From: Alphaproteobacteria bacterium
GTDB lineage: Bacteria > Pseudomonadota > Alphaproteobacteria > RF32 > CAG-239
NCBI GenBank assembly: GCA_017444525.1
Contig: JAFSWL010000034.1
Coordinates: forward strand, 1-35,549
Reading direction: 5' to 3'
Length of the DNA stretch: 35,549 nt
Positions within the stretch are counted from its first letter, which is position 1, and every line of letters starts with the position of its first letter. The notes beneath the pieces were generated by a model that was not told the origin of the DNA, searched no databases, and saw nothing but the letters and a program-made list of their open reading frames with translations. Below are positions 31,976 through 35,549 of this stretch, one piece after another. Position numbers and translations under genes: made by a program.

Positions 31976-33126
31976 AATACTATTTAATAGCCGGAGAGCC
32001 GTCGGGAGATGCACTCGGTGCGCGTTTGATGGAAGCTATCCGCCGTCAGGATAAAGAGGCTGTATTTGCCGGTGTCGGCGGCGACAGTATGCAAAATCAG
32101 GGTTTGACGTCACTTTTTAATATCTCCGAACTGGCGGTTATGGGTTTAGCCGAAGTTATTCCGAGCATTCCGCGAATATTAAAGCGTATTGACCAAACCA
32201 TTGCCGAGATTGTTCGGCAAAAACCCGACGTTGTCATCACTATTGACAGTTGGAGTTTCTGCGCGCGTATTCACAAACGTCTGCACAAGCTCAAATCAGG
32301 TATTCTGCAAGTACATTATGTGGCGCCGCAAGTCTGGGCTTGGAAGAAAAAACGCGCCCGCACCATGTATAAATATATAGATTTACTCTTAACCCTGTTT
32401 CCGCATGAGCCGAAATATTTTACACCGTATAATCTGGACACGGTTTTTGTCGGACATCCGGTGATTGAAAACGCCATAAGTCCAAACGAAAAATTTGCTG
32501 ATTTCAAAAAAAATCACAATATTCCGGAAAGCAACCGAGTGTTGCTGGTGTTGCCGGGGTCACGCCATAATGAGGTGGAGCGTCTGCTGCCGGATTTTTT
32601 ACAAGTTGTGGAAAAGCTGCACGCCAAATATCTTGATTTTTCGTTTGTGTTGCCAACGGTTTCAACGGTAGCCGAGCGCGTTAAAAAAATGGTACAGGAA
32701 TCCGAACTGCCGATTTTAGTTGTAGAAGGTGAAAAAGAACGCCGTGCCGCGTTTCAAAATGCCGATGTGGCAATCGCCGCTTCCGGTACGGTGGCGCTTG
32801 AACTGGCAATTTTGAATGTTCCGCACATTATTGCTTATAAAGTTCCGAAACTGACTGAATGGGTGGCTAAACGGGTGTTGCATATTCAGTTTGTTAATCT
32901 TACCAATATTCTGCTCGGTTACGAAGTTGTTCCTGAATTGCTGCAAACAGACTGCAATCCGGAAAATATTTTGCAGTATGTAGAGCAATTTTTAAGTCAG
33001 AACGCATTATATAAGCGACAAATAGAAAATTTTGAAAAGTTGCGACGATTGCTCGGTATGGGCGAACAAACTCCGAGTGATAATGCCGCCGAAGAAATCA
33101 TGCAGAGGCTGAAGCATGGCAAATGA
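31972..33126 (+). CDS. lpxB: Lipid-A-disaccharide synthase LpxB
   Basis: LpxB (glycosyltransferase family 19) joins lipid X to UDP-2,3-diacylglucosamine to form the lipid A disaccharide at the inner membrane. The 384 residues open with YLIAGEPSGDALGARLM, the family signature. GVGGDSM, ELAVMGLAEVIP, VHYVAPQVWAWKKKRA, FVGHPVIE and VLLVLPGSRHNEVERLLP follow, and the donor-binding ASGTVALELAIL lies near residue 270. GGAGG sits seven bases before the ATG. It takes its substrate directly from the product of lpxI and overlaps both lpxI and comEC by four bases. Confidence 0.96.
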   Translation: MKYYLIAGEPSGDALGARLMEAIRRQDKEAVFAGVGGDSMQNQGLTSLFNISELAVMGLAEVIPSIPRILKRIDQTIAEIVRQKPDVVITIDSWSFCARIHKRLHKLKSGILQVHYVAPQVWAWKKKRARTMYKYIDLLLTLFPHEPKYFTPYNLDTVFVGHPVIENAISPNEKFADFKKNHNIPESNRVLLVLPGSRHNEVERLLPDFLQVVEKLHAKYLDFSFVLPTVSTVAERVKKMVQESELPILVVEGEKERRAAFQNADVAIAASGTVALELAILNVPHIIAYKVPKLTEWVAKRVLHIQFVNLTNILLGYEVVPELLQTDCNPENILQYVEQFLSQNALYKRQIENFEKLRRLLGMGEQTPSDNAAEEIMQRLKHGK

Positions 33127-35126
33127 AAATAACGTGGCGCAAAATCAAAACATATATTAATGAAAATTTTGCCGCCGAACAAGAGCAGCTTACGGCTTGG
33201 GTGCCGTTTTGCTTTGCCGCCGGTATCGCGCTTTATTTTGCCCTGCCGACAGAGCCGAATATATGGTTTTCTCTCGGTATATTTGAATTATGGCTGTTGC
33301 TGTTTTATTTACTGCGACGAAAGAATTTACATCTGTTGTTTTTAAGCGGATTAGTATTCTGTCTCGGATTTATGAATATTCAGGCACATACACTGTATCA
33401 AAGCAGAAGAATCGAAAATATTTCCGAAAAATCGGTTACTTATCTGCGTGGACAAATCAAAAACATCAGCCGCTCGGAAAAAGGCAAAATCCGGCTACTC
33501 TTATATAACACCGCTGATTTTGACAGGCAACTTAAAGGGGATTTTCGCATTACAATTATGCCTGCGCCGCAAAATATACAAATCGGACAATGTGTCGAAA
33601 TGATTGCCACGATTTTTCCACGTGAACCACTGCCGATTTTAGGCGGATATCAGCTTGACCGCAAATATTTTTACGAAAATTTGAGTGCCATCGGCTATTC
33701 AAACAGTGAAACTTTTATAATCGACTGTCCGCAAAACACAACACACAACAAATTCATTACTGCGCTCAATACATTACGGCAGCAAATTACGCAGTATATC
33801 AGTACAATTTTAACTCCGGTTCAATGTGGAATTGCTGATGCGATTTTAATCGGTGAAAGGACTAACATTTCCAAACAAATCCTCAACAATTTCCGTGATT
33901 CCGGTCTAGCTCATTTTTTATCGGTATCAGGTTTGCATTTGGGAGCAATTGCCGGTTTGGTGTTTTTTATGGTTCGTTTTTTATTGGCGCTGTTTCCGGC
34001 GATTGCATTGCGCTTTGATATTAAGAAAATCGCCGCGATTGTTGCCGTTTTGTTCAGCGCATTTTATCTTTTGATTTCCGGTATGGCGATACCGGCACAG
34101 CGTGCGTTTATTATGACTACGGTGGTGCTTATCGGAGTTGTTTTCAATCGGCAGGCAATCTCGCTACGAATGGTGAGTTTTGCCGCATTGATGATATTGA
34201 TTATTTCGCCGCAAGCTCTCATTTCAATCGGATTTCAAATGTCATTTGCCGCGGTTTATGCTCTGGTATCGTTTTATGAAAGCTACAAGCGGAGACCGTA
34301 TCAAAAACGCGGAATTTTCAGCACAATATGGCTTTATTTGAGCGGCGTGGTGATTTGTGATTTTGTGGCGAGTCTGGCCACTGCGCCGTTTGCACTGTAT
34401 CATTTTCACCGTTTGGCATTATATACCAGTTTGGGCAATTTACTTGCCGGTCCGCTCATCGGATTATATTTATTGCCGGTAATGCTGATGTGTTTGACGG
34501 CACTACCGCTGCATCTGGCGTTTTATCCATTGAAATTACTTGGGGTTGGATTGAATTTATTGAATCAAATTACCGATTGGGTAGCACATTTACCGCACAG
34601 CGTATGGCAAACCGACGCGTTGCCGTTTTGGGGCTTTATGCTGATTGTACTCGGCGGCTTTTGGCTATGTGTTTGGAAAAGAAATTGGCGTTGGTGGGGT
34701 TTAGTGCCGATAATTATCGGAATTGTTCCGTTGTTTATGGCGCAGCCTCAACCTGATATGGTATTTTCGCCGTATGCTGCCGATATTGCGGTACGCGACA
34801 ATGCCAATGATTTGATATTGTTACCACGGCAGAATGACTCGTGGATAAAGAGTCTGTGGCAAGAGAATCTGCAACTTAAGCCTCTTTCTCGTCGTGAGCA
34901 AAACAATTTTATTGTTGACGACTTGCAATGCACGGATGAACATTGTATTTATAAAGACGCGGTAACTTTTGATGCCGGCGGCAACATTACGCTAAACGGA
35001 GAGCCGATTGATAACACCGCCGGCGGCTACATTTATCTTGGTAAAAATCCGCATTGGCAGCCGCTGTGGAACAACAAAAAACATCGAGCATGGAATAAGA
35101 GCAAAGATAAACAAAGTGCTGAATAA
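33123..35126 (+). CDS. comEC: ComEC/Rec2 DNA-uptake channel protein
   Basis: ComEC carries single-stranded DNA across the inner membrane during natural transformation. The 667 residues hold an N-terminal membrane hairpin, a periplasmic DUF4131/OB-like domain (about 90-205) and the Competence domain (about 220-510). The latter opens with LIGERTNISKQILNNFRDSG followed by LAHFLSVSGLHLG (262-274), a family hallmark, and has many helices. The last 110 residues are soluble. They lack the HxHxDH motif of the metallo-beta-lactamase domain found in Bacillus-type ComEC, so only a short degenerate C-terminal domain is present. The ATG overlaps the lpxB stop (ATGA) and has no ribosome site of its own, so expression depends on lpxB translation. 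Confidence 0.93.
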   Translation: MKITWRKIKTYINENFAAEQEQLTAWVPFCFAAGIALYFALPTEPNIWFSLGIFELWLLLFYLLRRKNLHLLFLSGLVFCLGFMNIQAHTLYQSRRIENISEKSVTYLRGQIKNISRSEKGKIRLLLYNTADFDRQLKGDFRITIMPAPQNIQIGQCVEMIATIFPREPLPILGGYQLDRKYFYENLSAIGYSNSETFIIDCPQNTTHNKFITALNTLRQQITQYISTILTPVQCGIADAILIGERTNISKQILNNFRDSGLAHFLSVSGLHLGAIAGLVFFMVRFLLALFPAIALRFDIKKIAAIVAVLFSAFYLLISGMAIPAQRAFIMTTVVLIGVVFNRQAISLRMVSFAALMILIISPQALISIGFQMSFAAVYALVSFYESYKRRPYQKRGIFSTIWLYLSGVVICDFVASLATAPFALYHFHRLALYTSLGNLLAGPLIGLYLLPVMLMCLTALPLHLAFYPLKLLGVGLNLLNQITDWVAHLPHSVWQTDALPFWGFMLIVLGGFWLCVWKRNWRWWGLVPIIIGIVPLFMAQPQPDMVFSPYAADIAVRDNANDLILLPRQNDSWIKSLWQENLQLKPLSRREQNNFIVDDLQCTDEHCIYKDAVTFDAGGNITLNGEPIDNTAGGYIYLGKNPHWQPLWNNKKHRAWNKSKDKQSAE

Positions 35127-35151
35127 TTCTGCACAGCTGTAATAATAACGC

Positions 35152-35180
35152 TTGCATTGCTATTTTTTATAACATAATAT
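35152..35180 (+). promoter_or_regulatory. Possible tRNA-Gly promoter inside an inverted repeat
   Basis: TTGCAT (35152-35157) and TAATAT (35175-35180) are 17 bases apart, ending 11 bases before the tRNA. Both boxes lie in an inverted repeat GCTTGCAT / ATGCAAGC (35150-35157, 35179-35186). The -35 match is weak. Confidence 0.4.
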
Positions 35181-35191
35181 GCAAGCATTGT

Positions 35192-35265
35192 GCGGGCGTA
35201 ATTCAATGGTAGAATAGAAGCTTCCCAAGCTTATAACGGGGGTTCGATTCCCCTCGCCCGCTCCA
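35192..35265 (+). tRNA. tRNA-Gly (anticodon CCC)
   Basis: The 74-base gene folds as a full cloverleaf. The acceptor stem GCGGGCG / CGCCCGC is perfect. The D-arm is ATTC / GAAT around AATGGTA. The anticodon stem-loop is GAAGC TTCCCAA GCTTA, with CCC in the anticodon position. The T-arm GGGGG TTCGATT CCCCT has one G-T pair, followed by T and an encoded CCA. The sequence is close to E. coli glyU (tRNA-Gly-CCC). The outermost anticodon-stem pair (G27-A43) is a mismatch. It decodes GGG. Confidence 0.93.
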
Positions 35266-35321
35266 ATAAAAAGCTCTCCTTTAGGGAGAGTTTTTTTGTT
35301 GGGCAGAGGGGAAGCGAACCC
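35240..35321. repeat. Large inverted repeat: tRNA T-arm/acceptor and its inverted copy around the terminator
   Basis: GGGTTCGATTCCCCTCGCCC in the tRNA 3' half (35240-35259) pairs with GGGCAGAGGGGAAGCGAACC plus one C at 35301-35321. This gives 19 base pairs with one mismatch and one bulged base, with the terminator hairpin at the centre. The right arm is in effect an inverted, slightly diverged copy of the tRNA 3' end. Confidence 0.8.
35274..35297 (+). terminator. tRNA-Gly terminator
   Basis: CTCTCC pairs with GGAGAG around TTTAG, followed by seven T. It starts nine bases after the tRNA. Confidence 0.85.
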
Positions 35322-35493
35322 TGAGAGGGCATCAAGCCAAAAACAACCTCAAAATGTTGTTTTTGGTGCTGATGGAGCAGTTTTCTTAATGAGCAATGGA
35401 AGCGAAAACAACCGTAGCGAATTTAGAAAAAAAGCACACGAATTTATCGGCGTAAACGCCGTAAATTTTCCCCTCGCCCGCTCCAATAAAAAG

Positions 35494-35517
35494 CTCTCCT
35501 TTAGGGAGAGTTTTTTT
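35494..35517 (+). terminator. Second copy of the tRNA terminator
   Basis: This is identical in sequence to the terminator at 35274, carried in the second copy of the direct repeat. Confidence 0.75.
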
Positions 35518-35549
35518 GTTGGGCAGAGGGGAAGCGAACCCTGAGAGGG

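Follow-up and report, generated by a model that had tools for sequence, protein, structure and literature searches.

A probable family of short, gene-free integrative elements in tRNA-gene loops of an alphaproteobacterial lineage

The repeat behind tRNA-Gly(CCC)

The window, that is, the whole stretch of 35,549 nucleotides that was analysed, is an entire contig (G000:C13) of a 1.58 Mb genome, that of an uncultured alphaproteobacterium from gut or rumen, which comprises 50 contigs and is 86% complete. At its right end lies the host gene of the structure described here, tRNA-Gly(CCC), on the plus strand at positions 35192–35265 (ARAGORN). The last 18 nt of this gene begin an 82-nt direct repeat: positions 35248–35329 and 35468–35549, both on the plus strand, are 100% identical and are spaced by 220 bp.

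The first copy of the repeat can be divided into four parts: the tRNA 3' 18 nt, a terminator-type hairpin with a T-run (35268–35296, plus strand), an imperfect copy, in inverted orientation, of the T-arm and the acceptor 3' strand of the tRNA (35298–35321, minus strand) and a small hairpin (CCCTGAGAGGG, 35319–35329, plus strand), which is the turning point from the inverted arm to a direct T-stem piece. Between the two copies lie three further plus-strand hairpins: core hairpin 2 (AAAACAAC..GTTGTTTT) at about 35330–35374, core hairpin 3 (GTTTTC..GAAAA), which contains the covarying stem discussed below, at about 35380–35431, and hairpin 4, which is variable and marks the core's right end, at about 35441–35467. 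These are followed by a direct copy of the tRNA-Gly 3' 18 nt, which starts in the T-loop (35468–35485, plus strand) and opens the second copy of the repeat, where terminator and inverted arm occur again until the contig stops inside it. The sequence-only reading had described this order from tRNA to direct copy, and the layout is confirmed. Its direct copy of the last 18 bases with the same terminator, 220 bp on, is also present and is part of a longer, 82-nt exact repeat, while the two hairpins it had placed between the copies are in fact three.

When folded as single-stranded DNA, positions 35266–35549 reach −64.9 kcal/mol, compared with −34.5 (sd 3.9) in 200 shuffles (z −7.8). One plus-strand frame is stop-free over 92 codons across the unit; it was rejected as a gene as other copies do not keep that frame, as far as the counts of core frames show. 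Structures of ~350 nt which are 95% and 93% identical to that of the window are present in the relatives G024 and G001, where they are internal to contigs, and at two relatives' loci (L039, L040) the second copy continues into other DNA.

Distribution, insertion boundaries, arms and cores

A search of 57 genomes, the window's own included, found that close relatives have the build seen in the window downstream of the same tRNA, and that other tRNAs are followed by pieces of it. At the loci inspected, the tRNAs with a full unit downstream are Gly-CCC, Thr-CGT, Phe-GAA, Asp-GTC and Val-TAC, and tRNA-Glu-CTC of the window's genome is followed by an inverted arm and a core with no clear direct copy. 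The unit is thus not found once only, and the earlier idea of a tRNA-derived mobile repeat gains support from its presence behind other tRNA genes with arms that follow the local tRNA. The unit is about 160–340 bp long, as measured within limits of 100–420 bp and with two short units containing N runs set aside, and has no recognisable gene.

A covariance model, R1, was built from 13 cores, and among these is the family A core of the window itself (35326–35444, plus strand), which R1 matches with 109.8 bits. With the window's genome counted throughout, R1 has matches in every one of the 27 genus genomes, at 1 to 31 copies each. Of 100 genomes sampled in the order, 83 have a match, and none of the 15 genera sampled is without one. 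Across the class, under a stricter limit, 4 of 190 sampled genomes had a match; three of these, the window's own included, belong to its family. Judged by these model searches, the core family is nearly restricted to one bacterial order. One genus of the window's family, g3, is nearly core-free, with a weak R1 match in 1 of 12 genomes. Named genomes scanned with an exact pattern yielded 31 stretches, the titles of which all read uncultured Alphaproteobacteria, proteobacterium or Rhodospirillaceae; the habitats named in these titles are rumen (15), reticulum (3) and horse faeces (1).

One exact pattern had no match in viral contigs, and plasmids likewise gave no matches. Matches were found in two records labelled Bacteriophage sp., MT835910.1 (L358) and MT838567.1 (L359), which hold three weak R1 matches. 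The larger of these carries ORFs that, by eye, we take to be RarA-, MiaA- and Ddl-like, and it reads like an alphaproteobacterial chromosome. Phage carriage is not claimed. Rfam gave no match to the core at gathering score in window positions 33000–35549 and 20 loci, and no description of such tRNA-end units was found in the open-access literature, papers on tycheposons included.

A second folding core, B, has a sequence which by eye is different and occupies the same place in the T-loop (L053, L055, L104, L152, L284, L285, L298, L321 and others); the filter for the core B sequence set admitted some A units too.

The boundaries of the units lie in tRNA loops. Counts of downstream boundaries and of stems are restricted to tRNAs that encode CCA and whose flanks are not short. 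Of 64 downstream copies of tRNA 3' ends from 23 tRNA species, at least two of which (Val-GAC, L135 and L286) are neighbouring full tRNA-Val genes, 54 start at nt 56–60 in the T-loop when the match is extended leftwards. Most units with core A have CAAGA at their end, after which nt 56 or 57 comes next; most units with core B end ahead of nt 58. Upstream copies of tRNA 5' ends number 17, and 11 of them, all at tRNA-Ala, terminate exactly at D-loop nt 20. An upstream copy of tRNA-Ser-TGA (L147) terminates at nt 36 near the anticodon and is possibly a case in which a third tRNA loop was used.

Empty and filled forms of the same site are available for both loops. For the T-loop, tRNA-Arg-ACG is bare with its native terminator in G001 (L277) and is followed by an extra 247 bp in the window's genome (L098). 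These 247 bp comprise a new terminator, an inverted arm, core A and the displaced native 3' end, past which the flank is almost base-for-base equal to the empty site. For the D-loop, tRNA-Ala-GGC is bare in G001 (L273) and filled in G024 (L143), where nt 1–20 occur twice, separated by a core and a new leader. On comparison of the loci, these pairs show insertion in the T-loop (Arg-ACG) or the D-loop (Ala-GGC), with the tRNA rebuilt and its old end displaced. G001 and G024 were also compared at 30 tRNA species, with Met-CAT, Val-GAC and loci with <200 nt downstream of the tRNA set aside: both genomes have a filled site at 10 species, only one of the two at 7, and neither at 13. The sequence-only reading had set the structure apart from a plain att duplication; the pairs indicate that the direct copy is exactly an att-type product, and what remains of the distinction is the inverted arm and the folding core, which are extra.

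Two loci of the 5' kind have features of their own. At tRNA-Ala-CGC of G001 (L103) the displaced 5' piece begins GGGGTTG and the present 5' end GGGGGTA, as if isoacceptors had swapped tRNA halves on insertion. Ahead of tRNA-Arg-ACG in G024 (L306) there is a core-less direct duplication of the leader and tRNA nt 1–16, which may be a precursor of the 5' form or a scar left by it.

The position of the cores relative to tRNAs was taken from a scan of 99 sources, chosen from among the matches listed, which gave at least 130 core matches, the 13 model sequences included. Among the matches listed, 82 of 130 cores could be assigned to a tRNA by distance: 69 downstream, of which 39 start 55–90 nt past the tRNA end, and 13 upstream, at tRNA-Ala and Arg-CCG, 24–72 nt ahead of the tRNA. 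The other 48 matches listed have no assignable tRNA in the stretch fetched; some lie at cut contig ends, some beside tRNA ends which ARAGORN missed and some in loops of tRNA-free intergenic palindromes. Core A occupies such intergenic loops (e.g. CGTCATACCTCGCA..TGCGTCAAGGTATC) at least in L106, L153, L157, L164, L165 and L172, and core-free copies of a palindrome of this kind were seen behind other tRNAs (L279, L319).

The arms of the units follow the tRNA beside which they stand. For 92 tRNA genes from three genomes, a few of whose copies are neighbouring tRNA genes and whose G000 loci were mostly chosen for holding an element, the direct copy of the tRNA's own 3' end scores above the 99th percentile of other-tRNA pairings at 36 genes, the inverted copy at 26 and an upstream copy of the 5' end at 8; an inverted 5' copy exceeds it at none of the 92. 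Because the G000 loci were mostly fetched for holding the element, we also quote the two other genomes, in which, for tRNAs with at least 200 nt behind them, an own direct or inverted copy is above the 99th percentile at 17 of 39 (G001) and 17 of 35 (G024). The expectation of the sequence-only reading, that the arm should track the upstream tRNA, is borne out by units that bear a core: when each inverted arm is compared with 37–40 tRNAs, the host's own comes first at 22 of the 39 loci and among the best three at 32, the window's own tRNA being second. Tracking is poor at some loci, for example Arg-ACG with ranks 19, 14 and 5.

The cores follow the tRNA less closely than the arms do. The nearest relative of a core stands at another tRNA in 51 of 79 cases among the matches listed, with examples that are 92–94% identical, and at the same tRNA in 28 of 79, where about 4 would be expected by chance. 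Cores are thus passed from one tRNA to another while the arms match locally; they also remain with a tRNA, and so do not move freely. Since similar cores at different tRNAs could not have brought all of these arms with them, one simple integration fails to explain the arm matching.

The inverted arm has a profile of its own, which was taken from the 77 of 150 loci with a score of at least 28, a selection that favours matching arms. It is identical to the tRNA at nt 54–56 in all 77 loci, the match is high at nt 47–48, at nt 73–76 and in the terminator flank, and it is lowest at nt 57–58 (0.55, 0.64), which face the insertion point, and at nt 66–72 (0.50–0.68). Folded recombination sites are palindromes with fixed weak points. 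The weak points of the arm may reflect a likeness to such sites; avoidance of a perfect, unstable palindrome would also produce them.

Pairing, candidate movers and competing explanations

The long stem of the core covaries, with double changes in 10 of 14 predicted pairs across 13 sequences and a similar result in 128 unique sequences. A functional plus-strand RNA would predict G.U pairs far in excess of A.C pairs, which is what the tRNA stems of the same loci show as a control (96 G.U and 6 A.C). The long core stem has 31 G.U and 22 A.C pairs, a count that omits column pair 57–174, which alone holds 108 G.U, and the second core stem has 11 G.U and 31 A.C. The difference between the long stem and the tRNA stems gives a Fisher p of 1.3e-7, in which the related sequences are not independent. 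The predicted excess is absent in the core, which is thus unlike RNA, and the pairing of the core stems seems, from these substitution patterns, to act in DNA. The stem of the inverted arm leans mildly to G.U in the same 77 selected loci (86 of 1009 sites, compared with 38 of 838 for A.C, p 0.0007), and this stem may have a role in RNA.

A protein product of the core was rejected, as no reading frame is conserved across cores. Counted over cores of at least 108 nt, 17, 13 and 22 of 121 cores have the respective plus-strand frame free of stops, compared with 12–13 in shuffles, and a frame anchored on the motif GGCGAAG is open in 36 of 115. The minus-strand frames are open in 55, 40 and 33 of 121 cores, which is taken as an effect of composition.

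Candidate movers were counted. Of the 27 genus genomes, most of which are incomplete drafts, all have the core and only 10 a Y1 transposase; IS110 occurs in only 4 of 27, and no reverse transcriptase was found in the window's genome at its 86% completeness. Tyrosine recombinase genes (PF00589) number 2 to 8 per genome in nine genomes and are uneven beyond two. Y1, IS110 and tyrosine recombinases were each rejected as a universal mover, their distribution not fitting that of the core.

The unit is probably one copy of a family of gene-free integrative elements of about 160–340 bp that enter tRNA-gene loops. The element would enter mostly through the T-loop and sometimes through the D-loop. In the T-loop form it would supply the 3' part of the tRNA, a terminator, an inverted arm as pairing partner of this 3' part and the folding core, which would leave the tRNA whole again and the old 3' end shifted downstream; on the reading given, the host tRNA-Gly(CCC) from the T-loop onward would be the copy delivered by the insert. 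In the D-loop form it would supply core, leader and tRNA 5' part. The sites of insertion, the regeneration of the gene and the displacement of its end are documented by the locus comparisons, as are tandem arrays, arms matched to the tRNA, a covarying core and similar cores at different tRNAs. Because a rebuilt gene with a displaced end is what is found at tRNA-gene islands, we take whole units to move by site-specific recombination. We infer that this would occur in trans, and that the recombination site would be the imperfect palindrome in a folded state, either as single-stranded DNA or as a cruciform. Two results speak against a simple version of recombination in trans: the cores are shared among different tRNAs, and none of the recombinase families counted is distributed like the core. 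A more ambitious form of the proposal, which we offer tentatively and hold to be doubtful, is a gene-free cassette system in which a trans-acting recombinase reads the shape of the T-arm, which all tRNA genes share, and swaps folded single-stranded cassettes. Here, the site would be the folded copy of the tRNA end, the tRNA genes would provide dozens of entry points per genome, and arrays of interchangeable cores would accumulate.

The mixture of local arms and shared cores can also be read as two separate processes. Replication could switch templates at the hairpins of tRNA and terminator and thereby produce local direct-inverted-direct triplications, the cores being separate miniature elements that seek hairpin loops, so that there would be no site-specific integration of whole units. 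The direct-inverted-direct order of the 3' units is that of such a triplication, both terminators of a unit are alike in several arrays, and the 5' duplication in L306 lacks a core. Loop-seeking cores would fit the similar cores that are enclosed by arms of different tRNAs, core A in the loops of other palindromes and also L189, a locus of another genus, where core A, by eye, is enclosed in the inverted arm and oriented in keeping with it. The terminators at Arg-ACG, Phe-GAA and Thr-GGT, however, differ between the rebuilt tRNA and the displaced end, and the new end is therefore not the product of simple local copying. Boundaries are moreover narrow and differ between cores A and B, and the core-less 3' units noticed, outside any systematic search, were one short unit (71 nt, L048) and one remnant (L044). 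This combination does better than integration on the local matching of the arms and worse on the foreign terminators, and we consider it unlikely.

The remaining alternatives carry little weight. The sequence-only reading had raised a structure controlling tRNA maturation, with the downstream copy paired to the 3' half of the tRNA. As a cis-acting RNA, such a structure could form through that pairing or through pairing with the inverted arm. The strand of the cores (that of the tRNA for 85 of the 87 with a tRNA within 600 nt, among the matches listed), the stable fold and the G.U lean of the inverted-arm stem would suit it. It is nevertheless improbable, as a terminator separates the tRNA from the core, the unit can stand 5' of the tRNA and is missing from related genomes at 7 of 30 compared tRNA species, the core fits no Rfam family and its stems do not show the excess of G.U found in tRNA stems, on which the control of maturation finds no support. 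Ordinary integrase-coding islands that have decayed to their att ends would leave duplicated and displaced tRNA ends, which are typical island traces, and there are tyrosine recombinase genes. The units, however, are alike in size, have the same covarying core, stand in tandem and occur at many tRNAs in every genome of the genus, which is unlike decay and makes this origin very improbable. Finally, the contig of the window stops inside the repeat, as might be expected of an assembly artefact or a chance tandem duplication. The artefact is rejected because complete units are internal to the contigs of relatives, and a single chance duplication because R1 cores occur in so many genomes of genus and order, so that the likelihood of either is negligible.

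Comparison with known systems

Known residents of tRNA genes are, as a rule, islands with their own integrase. If the proposed explanation is true, the units would rank with the smallest integrative elements and amount to a general, shape-based entry into many tRNA genes from both ends. The pairs of empty and filled sites make the insertion reaction directly testable. In addition, contigs in this lineage often end in such arrays, and partial copies can pass for tRNA genes.

Among the 3919 islands given in the Islander paper, 3760 have 3' fragments and 159 have 5' fragments; they split the target tRNA gene, restore it with element sequence and displace the old end, and tandem arrays occur (PMC4383910). 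As described there, the filters include a test for an integrase gene, and the paper's table of sites has anticodon-loop, T-loop and T/acceptor-junction classes and no D-loop class (PMC4383910). A review on archaeal tyrosine recombinases points out a likeness between the anticodon loop with its stem and the canonical integrase site, and by extrapolation places the cleavage by two enzymes at the border of the anticodon, D or T loops (PMC8371274). The units are like tRNA-gene islands in their loop insertion, in the restoration of the gene by the element, in the displacement of the native end, in the excess of 3' over 5' forms and in their tandem arrays. Unlike these islands, units of about 160–340 bp are too short for an integrase gene and have no conserved reading frame, and they have a folding core, an inverted arm matched to the tRNA and many tRNA species occupied per genome.

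REPs are short, dispersed, gene-free palindromic DNAs of 20–40 bp, which are associated with RAYT transposases (PMC3733652). The units share with them that they are short, dispersed, palindromic and gene-free, and differ in that they are larger and target tRNA genes, and in that a Y1 transposase is present in only 10 of 27 genomes and the core in 27 of 27.

Integrons also hold arrays of small units, in which attC is an imperfect palindrome with fixed unpaired positions and the crossover is at the core box GTTRRRY. The units resemble integron cassettes, and this is a resemblance only, in being small and arrayed and in having an imperfect palindrome with dips at nt 57–58 and 66–72. Unlike the integron crossover rule, 54 of 64 junctions, as judged by their position, are at T-loop nt 56–60 of whichever tRNA is the host; the site sequence of the unit follows the host tRNA, and the unit is without a conserved gene. 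MITEs are gene-free, dispersed, present in multiple copies and presumably moved in trans, and have constant terminal inverted repeats. The units are like MITEs in the first four respects and unlike them in that their inverted arms vary, following the host tRNA. The tycheposons of Prochlorococcus are targeted to tRNAs and some are without a recombinase of their own, and they are of kilobase size and carry genes; the units have the same target and likewise have no recombinase gene, whereas they are a few hundred bp in length and gene-free. Overall, the unit works like tRNA-gene islands, yet without an integrase gene, and it departs from MITEs and from REP/RAYT in the features tested, and from the integron crossover rule.
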